DNA of 64,000 bases from Catenuloplanes indicus (GTDB lineage Bacteria > Actinomycetota > Actinomycetes > Mycobacteriales > Micromonosporaceae). Shown piece after piece: positions 4,021 to 44,369 of this stretch; the first letter of the stretch is position 1, and each line of letters opens with the position of its first letter. A model generated the notes under the pieces. It saw only the letters and a program-made list of their open reading frames with translations. It was not told where the DNA came from and did not search any database. The translations under genes and the position numbers were made by a program. The stretch covers positions 8,104,501-8,168,500 of the forward strand of contig NZ_JAUSUZ010000001.1 in NCBI RefSeq assembly GCF_030813715.1, in the 5' to 3' direction.

Positions 4021-4233
4021 TCAGGCGGTGGCGCACGTCCCGGAATTTGCCCGGGGCTCGACCCGGTCGGCCACCGTGTGCAGCGCCCGGGCGAGGGCCC
4101 GGCGGGCACCGGCCGCGCGTACGGTGCGCGCGGGCCGGTCCGGGCGGACCGGGGCGCCCGGCTGGGCCGAGGTCACCTCGCGCATCATCGCCTTCATCGC
4201 CATGCTCATGCCGAGTCCGTCGGTGGTGTCCAT
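4021..4233 (-). CDS. Small hypothetical protein coupled to the LacI regulator
   Basis: A 70-residue protein starting MDTTDGLGMSMAMKAMM and ending in a basic stretch. The ATG lies one base after the stop of the LacI regulator, and a GGGAGG ribosome binding site sits inside the end of that gene, which supports real and coupled translation. I do not recognise the family. The Met-rich amphipathic N-terminus and basic C-terminus are the only visible features. Confidence 0.55.
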   Translation of the reverse strand: MDTTDGLGMSMAMKAMMREVTSAQPGAPVRPDRPARTVRAAGARRALARALHTVADRVEPRANSGTCATA

Positions 4234-4234
4234 G

Positions 4235-5302
4235 TCAGATCCTCCCGTTGGTGGCCGGGCCGGTGCTGGCCCGGACGATGAGCTCGGTGGGGAGCGCCAC
4301 GCGGCGCCCTTCGGCGGACGCCGGCGGGTCGAGCAGCAGCTCACCCGCGATGCGGCCCTTCTCCTTGGCGGGCTGGCGGACCGTGGTCAGGCCCGCCTCG
4401 GCCGCCTGCGGGATGTCGTCGAAGCCGATCACCGACACGTCCCGGCCCGCGCGCAGGCCCCTGGCCTCCAGCGCGTCCAGCGCGCCGAGCGCGAGCACGT
4501 CGCTGAACGCGATGACCGCGGTCGGCCGGTCGCGCCGGTCCAGCGCGGCGGCCGCGCCCTCCAGGCCGGCCTCGCGGCTGTTGCCGGGCACGTTGATGAT
4601 CGTCACGTCGTCCCAGTCCAGGCCGGCCTTCGCCCAGGCCTCCTGGTAGCCGCGCAGCCGTTCACGTTCGCCCTGGTAGGAGATGTCCTCCGGCTGGCGG
4701 ATCGGCGCGGTCCGGGGGCCCAGCGCCGGGTGCAGCATGTCCGCGATGATGGCCACCCGGCGGTGGCCGAGCGCGGTGAGGTGCGCGCCGGCCGCGCGGG
4801 TCGCCGCCGCCTCGTCGATGCCGGCCGCGAACATCGCCGCGTCCGGCGCCAGCAGCTCGGTGCCGACCACCGGCAGCCCGCGTTCGAAGATCGCCTGCCG
4901 GGCCGGGTGGCCCTCGGCCACGCAGAACACGCAGAAGCCGTCGACCGCGGCGTTGCGCACGGCGGCCCGGGCCGCCTCCGGGTCGTCCGGGACCGGGATG
5001 AGCAGCAGCCCGGTCGAGTGGCGCTCCGCGGCCTGCGACAGCCCCTGCAGGAAACGGACCGCGAACGGGTCCTTGAACGCGTAGGAGAGCACGTCCGTGA
5101 AGAGCACGCCGATCGCACCGGCCCGGCCGCGGCGCAGCGAGCGCGCGGTCGGGTTCGGGCCGGCGTAGCCGAGCCGGCGTGCCGCGGAGAGGATGCGTTC
5201 GCGCAGCTCGGGAGAGAGCTGATCGGGGCGCCCGTACGCGTTCGAGACGGTGCTGCGGGACACACCCACCTCGTCGGCCACGGTTTGTAGCGTCGGCTTC
5301 AC
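4235..5302 (-). CDS. LacI family transcriptional regulator
   Basis: A 355-residue repressor: N-terminal helix-turn-helix (TLQTVADEVGVSRSTVSNAYG) with the hinge LGYAGPNPTARSLRRG, followed by a periplasmic-binding-protein-like sensor ending in SVIGFDDIPQAAEAGLTTVRQP. The effector is probably a sugar or related small molecule, by family. I choose the GTG at 5302 because an AGGAGG site lies 8 nt upstream. The ATG at 5320 would lie inside an operator-like palindrome. Three ATCGAT-centred palindromes in the divergent upstream region suggest autoregulation and possible control of the PAP2-like gene. The small gene behind it is translationally coupled. Confidence 0.92.
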   Translation of the reverse strand: MKPTLQTVADEVGVSRSTVSNAYGRPDQLSPELRERILSAARRLGYAGPNPTARSLRRGRAGAIGVLFTDVLSYAFKDPFAVRFLQGLSQAAERHSTGLLLIPVPDDPEAARAAVRNAAVDGFCVFCVAEGHPARQAIFERGLPVVGTELLAPDAAMFAAGIDEAAATRAAGAHLTALGHRRVAIIADMLHPALGPRTAPIRQPEDISYQGERERLRGYQEAWAKAGLDWDDVTIINVPGNSREAGLEGAAAALDRRDRPTAVIAFSDVLALGALDALEARGLRAGRDVSVIGFDDIPQAAEAGLTTVRQPAKEKGRIAGELLLDPPASAEGRRVALPTELIVRASTGPATNGRI

Positions 5303-5314
5303 GCCGCCCCTCCT

Positions 5315-5396
5315 CTGCATCGATCCAGTGCCCTTCTAAATCGATACAGTACGCGGCGTCCGCCGTACCCTCAAGGGTTTTTCTGGATCGATCCAG
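5315..5396. promoter_or_regulatory. Three LacI-type operator palindromes
   Basis: CTGGATCGATCCAG at 5383-5396 is a perfect 14-nt palindrome. A one-mismatch copy (CTGCATCGATCCAG) lies at 5315-5328, and a weaker copy (CTAAATCGATACAG) at 5336-5349. ATCGAT-centred symmetric operators with a central CG are typical for LacI-family proteins. Their placement between the regulator and the divergent gene suggests autoregulation through looping or cooperative binding. This is inference from symmetry and position. Confidence 0.7.
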
Positions 5397-5450
5397 CCGG
5401 TCGTCGCACCTGCCGCGTGAAGTGGCTCCCGCGCCTGACATGATCTGGCG

Positions 5451-6053
5451 ATGAGCGTGACCGCCCCGGAGAAGACCACTGTGGACCGGCTTGCACGAGT
5501 GATCACCGAGGCGTTCGCACCGACGATCTGGGCCGTGACCATGCCGTTCGTCTTCGCGATCGAGCAGACCCGGTCGCCCGCCGGCTTCTGGTGGGCACTG
5601 CTGGCCGCCATACCCTGCGCGCTGATCCCGTACGGCATCGTCCGGTACGGCGTGATGCGCGGGACGCTCACCGACCACCACATCGGACGCCGGGAGCAGC
5701 GCCGCACCCCGCTGCTGCTCGCCATCGCGTCCGTCCTCGCCGGCCTGCTGCTGATCTGGCTGCTCGAGGCGCCGAGCCACCTGATCGGCATCATCGTGGT
5801 CATGCTCGGCGTGCTCACCCTGGTGATGCTCAGCAACCTGGTCTGGAAGCTGAGCGTGCACGCGGCCGTCGCCGCCGCCTCCACCATCGGCCTGATCTGG
5901 CTCTTCGGCCCGCCGCTGCTGATCCTGGTGCCGGTCGTCGCGGCCGTCGCCTGGTCCCGCGTGCGGCTGGCCGACCACACCTGGCTGCAGGTCGCGGCCG
6001 GTACCGCGGGCGGCGCCGCGGTCGCCATGCTGCTCGGCCCGCTGTTCTTCTGA
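5451..6053 (+). CDS. PAP2-like membrane phosphatase family protein
   Basis: A 200-residue protein with about six hydrophobic helices. It keeps shortened versions of the PAP2 phosphatase motifs: RREQRRTPL (motif 1 region), KLSVHAA (motif 2, with the His) and SRVRLADHTWLQV (motif 3, with the catalytic His but Gln in place of the usual Asp). Family members dephosphorylate lipid phosphates at the membrane. The changed motif 3 makes the activity uncertain. It lies divergent to the LacI regulator with the operators between them. A CATGAT -10-like box about 8 nt before the ATG and the lack of a Shine-Dalgarno would fit a leaderless message. Confidence 0.68.
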   Translation: MSVTAPEKTTVDRLARVITEAFAPTIWAVTMPFVFAIEQTRSPAGFWWALLAAIPCALIPYGIVRYGVMRGTLTDHHIGRREQRRTPLLLAIASVLAGLLLIWLLEAPSHLIGIIVVMLGVLTLVMLSNLVWKLSVHAAVAAASTIGLIWLFGPPLLILVPVVAAVAWSRVRLADHTWLQVAAGTAGGAAVAMLLGPLFF

Positions 6054-6171
6054 CCCGGACCTGCTGGGCGACGTCCGAGCCGCTGGTCACGGTCTATGAT
6101 TACGGATCGTGACGATATGACAGCGCGTGCCCGGTGCGCGTGGATATGAACAAGCTTCTACAGTGCATGTC

Positions 6172-7368
6172 GTGACGACGGAGAGCGCCGCGAGCGTCGA
6201 GATCGAGATCGAGGTGGAGGTCGAGCACCCCACCGAGCGGGTCTGGCGTGCACTCACCGAGCCGCGTCTGCTCCGCCAGTGGTTCGCCGAGACCGACCTG
6301 AAGCCGCGCGTCGGCGCGTTCTTCCAGCTCTCCGGCACCGACCTGCCGGGCCTGCAGCCCGATCCGGAGGCCGAGCAGCCCGAGCAGGGCTCCACGGTCG
6401 AGGGCGAGGTGGTCGGCGTCGAGACCGGCGAGCGGCTGGTGCTGTTCCTGCACGGGCCCGGCCTGGTGTCCCGGCTGCGCTGGGAGCTGGCCGCGGTCGA
6501 CGAGCAGCGCACCCGGATCATGCTGCACCAGTCCTGGCGCGAAGGCGCCGGGTCCGAGGCCGAGCTGGCCGACAAGCGCATCGCGTACGAGACCGCACTC
6601 GGTCAGCCGCTCGCGGCCGTGCTCGACTGGCTCGCGTTCGGCGAGGTCGACCTGGAGGGCATGCGCGGCCGCCGCGGGCCGGAGACCGTGATCCTGCCCC
6701 GGCTCAGCGTCGCGCGGCTGCGCAGCGCCCGGGTGCCGCTGACGATCGCGGGCGTGGCCGTGGTGGTCGGTCTGGCCGCGGTCACCGCCGGGATCATCTG
6801 GGGCCGCAGCGGTGGGAGCGGCGACGTGGCGGCGGAGGGCGGCGTCACGGCCATCACCTCCTCGCCGACGCCGCCGGAGGCCGGCGGCGACACCCCGATC
6901 ACGTCCTCGACCAGCACCGCGCTGCCGTCACCGGGCGCGACCCCGACGCAGTCGCCGGCGCCGGACCCGGCCTCGCTGCTGCCGAGCTTCCGGCCGCCGG
7001 CCAGCCCGACCGGTGCCGCGCCGACCCCGGCGGAGGACGTGCTGACGGCCGCGTACGCGACGGACGGGGACTGGGCGTTCGGCTACCGCGGCAAGATCTC
7101 GCTGACGAACCCGGGCCTGTTCCAGAACGGCACCTGGACCGTCGTGCTCACGCTGAAGAGCCCGATCACGGTGACGAAGGCGGACGGTGCGACCTTCACC
7201 CAGTCGGGTGAAACGGTGACGTTCACACCGGCGGCCGGCGCGATCCCGGTCGGCGCGTCCGGCGGCACCGCGTCGTTCACGTTCGAGGCCGACCTGAAGG
7301 GGTCGCTCTTCGCCGACCGCGAGCCCACCGCCTGCACCGTCAACGGCCGCGCCTGCGCCGGCGTCTGA
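6172..7368 (+). CDS. Membrane-anchored SRPBCC domain protein with C-terminal CBM2-like domain
   Basis: A 398-residue chimera. Residues 1-150 form an SRPBCC/AHSA1-like domain (VEHPTERVWRALTEPRLLRQWFAE, later YETALGQPLAAVLDWL), a fold that binds hydrophobic ligands in the cytoplasm. One membrane helix follows at about 188-210, then a Pro/Ser/Thr-rich linker, then a domain resembling family 2 carbohydrate-binding modules, with a terminal Cys pair (ACTVNGRACAGV). This topology puts the SRPBCC part inside and the CBM2-like part outside. GTG at 6172 is preferred, since the domain begins immediately after it; in-frame GTGs at 6163 and 6127 are alternatives. The Glu/Ile/Val alternation near the start comes from GAG-ATC/GTG codon repeats. 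Confidence 0.78.
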   Translation: MTTESAASVEIEIEVEVEHPTERVWRALTEPRLLRQWFAETDLKPRVGAFFQLSGTDLPGLQPDPEAEQPEQGSTVEGEVVGVETGERLVLFLHGPGLVSRLRWELAAVDEQRTRIMLHQSWREGAGSEAELADKRIAYETALGQPLAAVLDWLAFGEVDLEGMRGRRGPETVILPRLSVARLRSARVPLTIAGVAVVVGLAAVTAGIIWGRSGGSGDVAAEGGVTAITSSPTPPEAGGDTPITSSTSTALPSPGATPTQSPAPDPASLLPSFRPPASPTGAAPTPAEDVLTAAYATDGDWAFGYRGKISLTNPGLFQNGTWTVVLTLKSPITVTKADGATFTQSGETVTFTPAAGAIPVGASGGTASFTFEADLKGSLFADREPTACTVNGRACAGV

Positions 7369-41001: not shown

Positions 41002-42567
41002 ATGACGTTCGATTTCTCCCCGCTGCTGGCCCTGCTGGACGCACGCTCCACACCGCTGGAGGTGCTCGCGGCCGGCGAACCCGATCACGGCGAGCCCGCG
41101 TTCCAGGCCCTGCGCAACGACCTGCTCCTCGCGCTGGCCGCGCGCGGCTTCCGATCGGTCGCGCTGGAGACCGACCGGGTGCGCGCCCGGATCGTCGACG
41201 ACTACGTCCGCGGCGAGGCCGACGCGGACCTGGAGACCGTGCTGGCCGACGGGTTCAGCCACGGCTGGGGCAGCTTCGCCGGCAACCGCGACCTGGTGGT
41301 CCGGCTGCGCGAGCACAACGCGTCGGTGCCGCCGGAGGACCGGATCGCGTTCCACGGCTTCGACGCGCCGACCGAGGTCGACTCCGCGCCGAGCCCTCGT
41401 CCGTACCTGCTGCGTGCCGTTGATCTGGTCGGCGACCGGGTCTCGGTGGACCGGGCGCGGATCGAGGAGCTGGCCGGGCCGGACACGCGCTGGTCCAGTC
41501 CGGACGCGGTGATGGACCCGGCACGCTCGCCCGGCCTGAGCCCGGACGCGGCCGCGTTGCGGATCATCGCCGACGACCTGCTCGGCGCGCTCTGGGCGGC
41601 CGGGCTCACGGACGACGTGACGCACGCGGAGACCGCGCTCTGGCTGCTGCGGTACCACGCGGCCGCGGCCGCGCCGGTCGCGTTGAACGTCCGCGTCACG
41701 CGCCTGATCGGGCTCCGGGACGCCTGGATGGCCCGCAACCTGATCGACATCCGGGAACGGGAGCGGCGGCGCGGCGCCACGCTGCTGCACGCGCACAACG
41801 CCCACCTGCAACGGCACGGCGCCTCCTGGGACGCGGCCGGCTGGGAGCAGGGTGACCTGAACCTGCGCTGGAACCCGGCCGGGCGGATCGCGGCCGGTGT
41901 CCTCGGCGACCGGTACCTGTTCCTGGCCGGCAGCCTCGGCGCCAGCGCCGCACTGGGCCTGGCGACACCCGCCGAGGGTACGTTCGAAGCCGCGCTGACG
42001 GACGGCCTCAACGTCGGTGCCGAGGCCGGCGACCTGGTGGGCCGTGCCGACGGTGTGCACGGGCACTTCCCGCTCACCGCGGAGCTGATCGCGGACGCGG
42101 ACGCGATCTGGCACCTCGCGTCCGTGGGCCTGGACGGGCCGACCGAGCCGGAGATCGCCGAACGGATCCGCAACATCCCGGGCGTGACCGAGTTCGTCGC
42201 GGACGAGACCGCGAACCGGGACCGCTTCTTCTTCGCCGGTGTCTCGCACCGCATGCCGTTCGCCACGATCGTCGCGCGGGACACGCCCGGCGTCGACGAG
42301 GAGTCCCGGCTGGACCGGCCCGGCGTGTTCCGGCTCAACATCGCGCTCGGCCGTGCCGAGTTCACCCGGCGCTTCGGCCACCCGCCGGCGGACGCGGCCG
42401 CGCACCGCGCCGGTGTGGACTTCGCCCGGCTCGGCGTGATCATGCCGCACCCGGCGTACGCGGTGCAGGGCTGGGCCGCCGTGCTGAACCCGCCGGTCGC
42501 GCTCCTGCCCGAGCTGGACGACCTGCTCGACCGCGCCCGGCGCCGGGCCTCCGGAGAGGCCGGTTGA
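41002..42567 (+). CDS. Erythromycin-esterase-fold enzyme fused to a DUF6194 domain
   Basis: A 521-residue protein. Residues 1 to about 375 are an erythromycin esterase (EreA/EreC-like) domain: AAGEPDHGEPAFQALRN (the Glu and His of the catalytic region), SVALETDR (catalytic Glu) and LLHAHNAHLQRHG (His pair). Residues about 385-510 match DUF6194: FFFAGVSHRMPFATIVARDTPG, ESRLDRPGVFRLNIALGRAEFTRRFG. These two domains are normally separate proteins. The Ere fold occurs in many soil actinobacteria, where most members have unknown substrates, so macrolide inactivation should not be assumed. It is divergent from the TioE-like regulator. Confidence 0.85.
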   Translation: MTFDFSPLLALLDARSTPLEVLAAGEPDHGEPAFQALRNDLLLALAARGFRSVALETDRVRARIVDDYVRGEADADLETVLADGFSHGWGSFAGNRDLVVRLREHNASVPPEDRIAFHGFDAPTEVDSAPSPRPYLLRAVDLVGDRVSVDRARIEELAGPDTRWSSPDAVMDPARSPGLSPDAAALRIIADDLLGALWAAGLTDDVTHAETALWLLRYHAAAAAPVALNVRVTRLIGLRDAWMARNLIDIRERERRRGATLLHAHNAHLQRHGASWDAAGWEQGDLNLRWNPAGRIAAGVLGDRYLFLAGSLGASAALGLATPAEGTFEAALTDGLNVGAEAGDLVGRADGVHGHFPLTAELIADADAIWHLASVGLDGPTEPEIAERIRNIPGVTEFVADETANRDRFFFAGVSHRMPFATIVARDTPGVDEESRLDRPGVFRLNIALGRAEFTRRFGHPPADAAAHRAGVDFARLGVIMPHPAYAVQGWAAVLNPPVALLPELDDLLDRARRRASGEAG

Positions 42568-43628: not shown

Positions 43629-44027
43629 GAACGAACCAGCCCACGTTCACCAAGCCCCGGCGGGCCGGCCGCCGCTGACCGTGAGGTGGACCGAACGGGT
43701 GCCGGTGACCGCGCTGACCTCGCCCGGCACCTCGCGGAAGCTGCTCCCGCCCGCCATGGTGAGCCGGATGAAGCAGGCCCTGGTGGCCGGTCGTCTGCGA
43801 CCGGTACGACCCGATCCGGTTCTGCGGGACCGGCAACCGATGTGAAGTGCTATCGGTCCGCGATCGAGGCACCCGGCCGGCGCCGTGCGGTGCCGCACGA
43901 CGTCGAGGCCGGCTACGCCGTCGGCGACTACGTGCTCAAGCCGTTGTCGCCGCGTTTCCTGCGCACCCGGCGCCGAACTGCCGCTCGCGCGGAGCGCCGC
44001 ACCGGCGTGCGATCGCGGCTGACCGGT
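43629..44027. other. Non-coding stretch between dehydratase and tRNA-like array
   Basis: No credible gene here. One frame gives VEAGYAVGDYVLKPLSPRFL at 43903-43962, which looks like the end of a response-regulator receiver domain (DYVLKPFSPREL in active proteins), so it may be a remnant. The rest shows no codon structure. The proteins readable across the tRNA-like array that follows are antisense artefacts. Confidence 0.35.
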
Positions 44028-44102
44028 GCGGGCGGACCGGATTCGAACCGGCGTCCTTCCGGTTTTGGAGACCGGACGCGACGACCTCTGCGCTACCACC
44101 CA
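44028..44102 (-). tRNA. tRNA-like gene, anticodon CCA
   Basis: A cloverleaf can be folded: acceptor 7 bp with two G-U pairs (1-72, 5-68), D arm with GCG/CGC, anticodon loop CTCCAAA (CCA, Trp codon) on a 6-bp stem, variable loop AGGAC, T arm with loop TTCGAAT. The base at position 73 is C and no CCA end is encoded. Pair T1-G72 and C73 are not those of actinobacterial tRNA-Trp (A1-U72, G73). The D and T arms are nearly identical to those of the two neighbours. Either an unusual tRNA or a tRNA-like RNA. Confidence 0.6.
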
Positions 44103-44115
44103 CGTGATCGGGAAG

Positions 44116-44188
44116 GCGAGTGTGCCGGATTCGAACCGGCGTCCTCCGCCTTGACAGGGCGGCGCGTCGACCTCTGCGCTACCACTCG
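44116..44188 (-). tRNA. tRNA-like gene, anticodon GTC
   Basis: Cloverleaf with anticodon loop CTGTCAA (GTC, Asp codons) on stem CCGCC/GGCGG, variable loop AGGAC, T arm GCCGG-TTCGAAT-CCGGC. The acceptor CGAGTGG/ACACTCG has a G-A mismatch at 7-66, and pairing continues beyond position 1 (GGCGAGTG with CACTCGCC). Position 73 is C where tRNA-Asp needs G, and no CCA is encoded. D loop AGAGGTCG is identical in all three genes. Position 13-22 is a C-A mismatch. Confidence 0.6.
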
Positions 44189-44201
44189 CCCGCCCGGGGG
44201 T

Positions 44202-44274
44202 ACGGGCGGGCCGGATTCGAACCGGCGTCCCCCGTTCTGCGAAAACGGTGCGCCGACCTCTGCGCTACCACCCG
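44202..44274 (-). tRNA. tRNA-like gene, anticodon CGC
   Basis: The best-formed of the three: 4-bp D stem (GCGC/GCGC), anticodon loop TTCGCAG (CGC, Ala codon GCG) on CCGTT/AACGG, variable loop GGGAC, T arm GCCGG-TTCGAAT-CCGGC. The acceptor CGGGTGG/CCGCCCG lacks the G3-U70 pair that defines tRNA-Ala, and its pairing extends outward to an 11-bp helix (44199-44209 with 44268-44278). No CCA end. Leftward transcription would probably start near a TAGTCT-like box around 44290. Confidence 0.6.
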
Positions 44275-44369
44275 TACCGGAGGACAGACTAGTCACACCG
44301 GTCCCGAGGGGTGACAGGGCCTCGCCCGCACGGGGGCGGGCGACCTAGGATCTAGCCCAGGGGGTGAGG

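Follow-up and report, generated by a model that had tools for sequence, protein, structure and literature searches.

The YrlA-type bacterial Y RNAs are tRNA-like RNAs linked to a VWA-domain protein, Ro60/Rsr. A second tRNA-like RNA, said to have been described by Burroughs and Aravind in 2016 as a 'novel tRNA-like molecule', reportedly occurs with SPFH/Band-7 proteins in RNA-repair operons. Mycobacteria and their plasmids have tRNA array units, in which extra tRNA genes lie in tandem (PMC5966550, PMC12803027).

Closest to the genes described here is the Streptomyces tRNA-Asp-AUC (PMC9262613; Chen et al. 2022). According to the available passages of that paper, this gene occurs in 32 of 4649 genomes and is followed, in order, by genes for an LRR protein, a 'PE-PGRS' protein, a MoxR ATPase, and a hypothetical protein. 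The RNA is reported there to be constitutively expressed at a level like that of tRNA-Asp-GUC, to be detected as a small RNA, and to carry A34 in 97 per cent of reads. It rescues a 6xGAT eGFP reporter, which the authors interpreted as GAU decoding, and this 'new tRNA' is said to increase antibiotic yields via GAU decoding. The element is treated as one Asp tRNA confined to Streptomyces.

We examined an array of tRNA-like genes in a 64-kb stretch of DNA (the window, meaning the whole stretch analysed). ARAGORN called exactly three tRNAs in the window, all on the minus strand and all within the array, and each was matched by Rfam RF00005 (41.3, 54.7, and 55.1 bits; cut-off 29 bits). The original prediction of three minus-strand cloverleaf genes at 44028..44274, to be checked with covariance models, was thus borne out. 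The features are as follows.

44199..44278, minus strand: tRNA-like element 1, triplet CGC (Rfam match 44202-44274; ARAGORN 44199-44275, cgc)
44115..44190, minus strand: tRNA-like element 2, triplet GTC (Rfam match 44116-44188; ARAGORN 44115-44188, gtc)
44028..44103, minus strand: tRNA-like element 3, triplet CCA (Rfam match 44028-44102; ARAGORN 44025-44103, cca)
44286..44291, minus strand: -10-like hexamer TAGTCT, 13 nt before the GG at 44278 where element 1's extended stem begins

The three genes have near-identical D arms, variable loops, and T arms, with a common D loop (AGAGGTCG), GAC-ending variable loops (GGGAC, AGGAC, and AGGAC), and the T arm GCCGG-TTCGAAT-CCGG(C/T); they differ in the anticodon and acceptor arms. 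Element 3 has an anticodon arm of 19 nt with a 6-bp stem. The reading of one body with the anticodons CCA, GTC, and CGC therefore stands. Alanine tRNAs are usually identified by G3-U70 and aspartate tRNAs by G73, and comparable rules hold for tryptophan. As had been predicted for all three amino acids, the array genes lack the usual elements: there is no G3-U70 and no G73, position 73 being T in the CGC gene and C in the other two, pair 3-70 of the CGC gene being G-C rather than G-U, and the CCA gene having T1 and C73. None of the three encodes a 3' CCA, again as predicted.

Acceptor pairing was also expected to continue beyond position 1, and it does. Element 1 has an 11-bp acceptor stem, with four extra pairs formed by GGTA and TACC; element 2 has 9 bp with two extra G-C pairs (10 bp counting a G-U), and element 3 has 8 bp with one extra pair, G(-1)-C73. 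Among the fifty-eight other tRNA genes of the genome taken as a control, fifty have no extra pair, seven have one, and one has three. The array genes share with ordinary elongator tRNAs a cloverleaf recognised by tRNA models, and by predicted pairing they lack the ordinary 7-bp acceptor stem with a free N73 and CCA end. The whole genome gives sixty-two tRNA-model matches, among which ordinary Trp-CCA, Asp-GTC, and Ala-CGC tRNAs are present. The array genes are therefore extra, and the possibility raised at the outset that they are the sole Trp, Asp, and Ala-CGC tRNAs of the genome is ruled out.

The three genes are not an isolated case. The body pattern GTAGCGCAGAGGTNGNCGC, searched with up to one mismatch in 300 genomes of the taxonomic family, is present in 94 of them, covering 22 of 44 genera; a reversed-pattern control gave scattered matches, mostly zero and at most three per genome among the matches listed. 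A regular expression identified 128 copies in 100 neighbourhoods and 169 copies over all loci collected. The same body with other anticodons in relatives supports the proposed duplication of a single ancestor with altered anticodon arms. Phylum-wide, the pattern was found in 9/396 genomes, and a tRNA call by ARAGORN at the matched position was limited to the array's own genome, G517, and G668. The Streptomyces genome G517 carries three free copies (L333, L342, and L343, read as Gly-gcc, Trp-cca, and Met-cat) on contigs other than that of its leader copy L340, so unlinked free copies exist in Streptomyces too. A phage origin was considered and rejected, as the exact pattern, the only form searched there, is absent from viral contigs.

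The published Streptomyces gene belongs here as well. Primer P3 in the available text of PMC9262613 has the body of the family together with an arm of the leader type. A 32-base pattern derived from P3 (with the wild-type base) matched exactly in 1/295 Streptomyces genomes and with up to three mismatches in 25/295, and the triplets at the 26 places found at up to three mismatches were ATC (21), AGC (3), and TTC (2). At twelve Streptomyces loci, which do not include the exact-match locus, an LRR gene follows in 12/12 and a gene for F0, the ankyrin protein family of the operon described below, in 11/12. By its primer and gene neighbourhood, the published tRNA-Asp-AUC is a leader copy of the family, and it has the same D, variable, and T arm body as the window genes. 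Compared with the element as presented in the passages of PMC9262613, the family spans other genera and other triplets and has an extended stem and free copies; some members elsewhere have, in addition, a PafBC-like promoter and an SDR gene. Unlike the published element, the genes in the window are free copies, not leaders: the array consists of three free-standing family members, tRNA-like ncRNAs, in tandem. Its neighbours are genes of 191 aa and 188 aa and an FtsX gene, and the genes directly 3' of it are not the LRR, F0, MoxR, and hypothetical genes of the Streptomyces order. Also in the window, at 41002-42567, one ORF fuses an erythromycin-esterase domain with DUF6194. We found no description of the wider family beyond PMC9262613 in the part of the literature that our searches covered.

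The extended acceptor stem is a property of the family. Across 126 unique copies, pair -1:73 forms in 112 (shuffle mean 57, maximum 72), pair -2:74 in 112 (mean 85, maximum 96), and pair -3:75 in 99 (mean 75, maximum 86). Pair types at -1:73 swap between G-C, C-G, A-T, and T-A, and compensatory changes are found in both the acceptor and the anticodon stems. Fourteen copies have no extra pair, and fifty-three have exactly three. These alignments show a family acceptor stem predicted at about 10 bp, with bases 73-75 paired to three 5' bases.

The position of the putative promoter suggests where the transcript begins. A TAnnnT box is found at -16 in seventy-nine cases. Exactly one TAnnnT lies at -22..-11 in 141/169 copies, and in 86 of the 141 a GG follows exactly 13 nt on, against a background of 0.0009 per position. 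Longer stem extensions accompany boxes further upstream. Of the twenty-eight copies without such a box, twenty-two lie directly behind another copy. Ordinary host tRNAs have a box in the same range in 17/58 cases, at spread positions. The window array fits the spacing rule, with TAGTCT at 44291-44286 and GG at 44278, and its transcription start is predicted near 44278; a strict -35/-10 scan returned no promoter at the array. With the -10 box standing 13 nt before the GG that starts the stem, the RNA's 5' end seems to coincide with the outer end of the closed stem.

Leader copies often have a CCTTG or CCTTA arm that does not form five pairs, and many of them have a recognisable motif upstream. 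TGTCRGTG, at seven or eight of eight positions and with a 7-9 nt spacer to TAnnnT, precedes 22/34 CCTTG/CCTTA leaders versus 6/135 other copies. We take tTGTCRgtg-N8-TAnnnT to be the RecA-NDp/PafBC consensus. The literature confirms this promoter class, in passages that do not spell out the motif letters. The exact motif occurs five times in the array's own genome, once before a RecQ gene and once before a RadA-like gene. Many leader-type copies thus appear to be under a PafBC-like, DNA-damage-type promoter. Twelve Streptomyces leaders have a -10 box and no TGTCRGTG by eye, and a search for the PafBC-like motif with up to two mismatches found no site near 44278 in the window.

Half of the copies (64/128) lie no more than 150 nt upstream of a co-oriented F0 (28), SDR (24), or LRR (12) gene. 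In 9/20 further regions the order is tRNA-like copy, SDR, LRR, F0, MoxR, VWA; these nine hold all five gene families and all begin with a tRNA-like copy, although one (L240) has an additional F0 after the SDR and some have free copies upstream. Pfam domains of the linked proteins are LRR, ankyrin, MoxR-type AAA, DUF2201 with VWA, and SDR. Counting the linked SDR branch among the matches listed (sorted by E-value and cut at 1e-179), the body pattern is found in 53/54 genomes with that branch versus 41/246 others (P = 1e-31). The array's own genome has SDR-F0-MoxR-VWA at C1:2121199-2126691, 6 Mb from the window array, and F0-MoxR-VWA at a second locus (L231); neither an upstream tRNA-like copy nor an LRR gene was called at either, with gene calls outside the window coming from a simple custom caller rather than from annotation. 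We regard the array's membership in a family of stem-extended, loop-variable tRNA-like RNAs with this operon linkage as highly likely.

The linkage partly extends to other phyla. Among eighty kept loci of SDR relatives (576 confirmed), eight have a tRNA-like gene ending within about 100 nt upstream of the SDR gene (L250-L253, L268, L272, L273, and L298, with an uncertain start of the SDR gene in L272), and in L320 such a gene lies about 185 nt before the match. When six loci were searched with Rfam under an E-value threshold, only L268 had a tRNA-like gene there. Four fetched loci of another SDR branch (L232, L233, L234, and L246) gave no tRNA call. Single loci with an SDR gene and an upstream tRNA-like gene come from Actinomadura, Herbidospora, a SAR324 MAG, an Armatimonadota MAG, and an unclassified bacterium, and the last three have tRNA-like genes with other bodies:

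L268 (SAR324 MAG), 6907-6984: tRNA-like gene with another body before an SDR homologue; the upstream gene has DUF6745
L272 (Armatimonadota MAG), 6863-6936: tRNA-like gene with another body before an SDR homologue; an LRR gene follows
L298 (unclassified bacterium), 4193-6938: tRNA-like gene with another body before an SDR homologue; an LRR gene follows

SDR enzymes typically have a YxxxK motif with a catalytic Tyr; in our alignment of the linked SDR proteins (A3) an invariant Thr stands where that Tyr is expected, and a Cys-rich N-terminal segment has four invariant Cys. A structure model of the SDR protein (mean pLDDT 79.3) matches plain SDR folds and gives no lead, and an AlphaFold model of F0 from three sequences (mean pLDDT 49.9) was too poor for use. 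The tie between a tRNA-like RNA and a VWA-domain protein recalls Y RNA and Ro60, although here the VWA protein is of the DUF2201 type and the anticodon-like loops vary, and no TROVE/Ro domain matched among the linked proteins scanned. The system attributed to Burroughs and Aravind is likewise said to combine a tRNA-like RNA with a protein system; in the linked proteins that were scanned with Pfam, neither a Band-7 nor an RNA ligase domain came up, and RNA repair of the RtcB/SPFH kind was rejected because the linked proteins scanned have no such domain. Membership in a known defence family was also rejected, as PADLOC gave no system-level match and only ankyrin and RtcR-type AAA model matches. 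Adjacent MoxR and VWA genes are likewise found in the MoxR-vWA ternary conflict systems, in whose available passages (PMC7159879) the single mention of tRNA is in the reference list and neither ankyrin nor DUF2201 is mentioned.

The anticodon loop stands out as the part of the RNA that changes. Pairwise comparison of eight orthologous first copies, all lying before SDR genes, gives a mean difference of 0.46 for the loop and 0.42 for the triplet, compared to 0.00 for the anticodon stem, 0.03 for the D arm, and 0.01 for the T region. Nine orthologous second copies gave 0.35 (loop), 0.44 (triplet), 0.11 (anticodon stem), 0.04 (D arm), and 0.07 (T region). Variation among aligned orthologous copies thus appears to lie mainly in the anticodon loop. 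At the array's syntenic place, flanked by those 191-aa, 188-aa, and FtsX genes, three genomes of the same genus read CGC-GTC-CCA, CGC-GTC-CCA with an 8-nt loop in the GTC copy, and CTC-GCG.

This variation has a bias. The 116 copies whose arms are regular carry, among other triplets, CCA (13), GCT (13), GCA (12), CTC (12), ATC (8), AGC (8), CGC (7), GCG (7), GTC (6), and CAT (6). C is found at position 35 or 36 in 110 of them, the other six being CAT, and CA or CG is present in 67/69 distinct 7-nt loops versus 26/49 host loops, with copies that are not independent. U33 is found in 58/76 loops and a purine at 37 in 60/76. Exact mimicry of the host's loops proved weak: 17/76 loops match one of the host's own exactly, where 1000 simulations gave 7.9 on average and 19 at most. 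Outside both regular arm classes are 36/121 unique copies, with arms of 16, 18, or 20 nt or fewer than four of five stem pairs.

The family RNAs are probably not mainly for translation. The explanation that we favour for the whole, tentatively and at less than even confidence, combines the family, its closed stem, its operon linkage, and a role as bait or sensor. The closed stem would keep the RNA from normal processing and charging, and the anticodon loop would be displayed to factors that attack or read tRNA anticodon loops. The LRR, ankyrin, MoxR, and VWA proteins might then detect bound or cut RNA and respond, and the leader copy would tie operon expression to the same RNA, often from a DNA-damage-type promoter. 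Taken by itself, the idea of stem-closed tRNA mimics that display anticodon loops as bait or sensor for the operon proteins is possible, if doubtful. It is a rather unlikely further step to view the RNA as the counterpart of a variable immune receptor, with stem-capped mimics carrying fast-changing bait loops. A tRNase or modification enzyme acting on the loop would be sensed by the LRR/ankyrin proteins, which would drive a MoxR-VWA machine, and the leader copy would be a built-in operon reporter. The loop bias (CA or CG; C at 35 or 36) might then mean that the RNAs address a single class of attackers or readers, one that acts on loops containing C. Counted against a bait or sensor are the reported expression level and GAU reporter result of the Streptomyces member, loops with U33 and a purine at 37 as in decoding tRNAs, the modest mimicry of host loops, a window array that is not beside the operon, an own-genome operon in which neither a leading tRNA-like copy nor an LRR gene was called, Streptomyces leaders without TGTCRGTG, the failed F0 model, and the lack of a system-level PADLOC match.

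The original prediction had offered charging by an unusual synthetase, use outside translation (e.g. as aminoacyl donors), or decoys. Of these, a decoy fits best. Accessory decoding tRNAs, which would be trimmed, charged, and used in translation, with changing anticodons that tune decoding, are an unlikely though serious rival. The expression, small-RNA reads, and GAU reporter effect described for one member in the available passages of PMC9262613 speak for it, and nothing weighs more heavily against a purely non-translational role than the decoding result there; the common canonical U33/R37 loops and Rfam scores of 41-55 bits point the same way. Against decoding are the extended stem kept by covariation, the missing identity bases of the window genes under the usual rules, a host that already has the same anticodons, the share of copies in neither regular arm class (36/121), a leader triplet that varies within Streptomyces (ATC at only 21 of 26 places), and the absence of any word starting with 'aminoacyl' from the available text of PMC9262613.

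Another serious if unlikely rival is a cis-acting leader, a 5' tRNA-like fold controlling the processing or translation of the mRNA, with free copies as titrating decoys in trans. It would work through RNase P and 3' tRNA processing, or one of the operon's proteins would regulate its own expression. The many copies close upstream of F0, SDR, or LRR genes and the predicted transcript start at the stem agree with a leader; for a pure leader, both the free copies far from the operon (in the window and in G517) and the diversification of the loop would be superfluous; the RNA was also seen as a small RNA in the passages of PMC9262613. Aminoacyl-tRNA donors for peptide or cell-wall tailoring by linked enzymes would suit the lack of usual identity bases and the linkage to an SDR-like protein. 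The pairing of bases 73-75 in most copies fits them poorly, and the linked core proteins that were tested gave no peptide-ligase or transferase domain; we consider this option very improbable. Functionless, decaying mobile tRNA copies would explain the tandem arrangement and the patchy spread (3/396 phylum genomes with copies that ARAGORN also calls), and are contradicted by compensatory changes in the acceptor and anticodon stems next to constant arms; with the exact pattern also missing from viral contigs, we give decay almost no weight.

Genes that annotation pipelines would label tRNA-Trp, tRNA-Asp, and tRNA-Ala probably form a separate RNA class. It would be the first family to diversify its anticodon loop on a conserved tRNA fold, with linkage to an LRR/ankyrin/MoxR/VWA operon. 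The GAU-decoding 'new tRNA', as described in the passages of PMC9262613, would be seen in a new light, as either a mature tRNA or a stem-closed mimic.

The array shares with the mycobacterial tRNA array units (PMC5966550, PMC12803027) the presence of extra tandem tRNA-like genes. It differs in having one body and three genes with different loops rather than many different bodies. A separate cluster of extra tRNA genes with ordinary bodies (L036), outside the window at C1:945007-946438 of the same genome, looks more like such a unit. It includes Arg-acg, Gln-ctg, Gly-gcc, Met-cat, Pro-ggg, Ser-cga, Ser-gct, Trp-cca, Val-cac, and Val-gac, and about 2.3 kb upstream, at 948738-948759 on the same strand, there is an exact match to the PafBC-like motif. 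At C1:8385106-8385177 (L047) the genome also carries a lone extra tRNA-Ala(ggc), which has a low score (56.4 bits) and is unlike the ordinary Ala-ggc gene.
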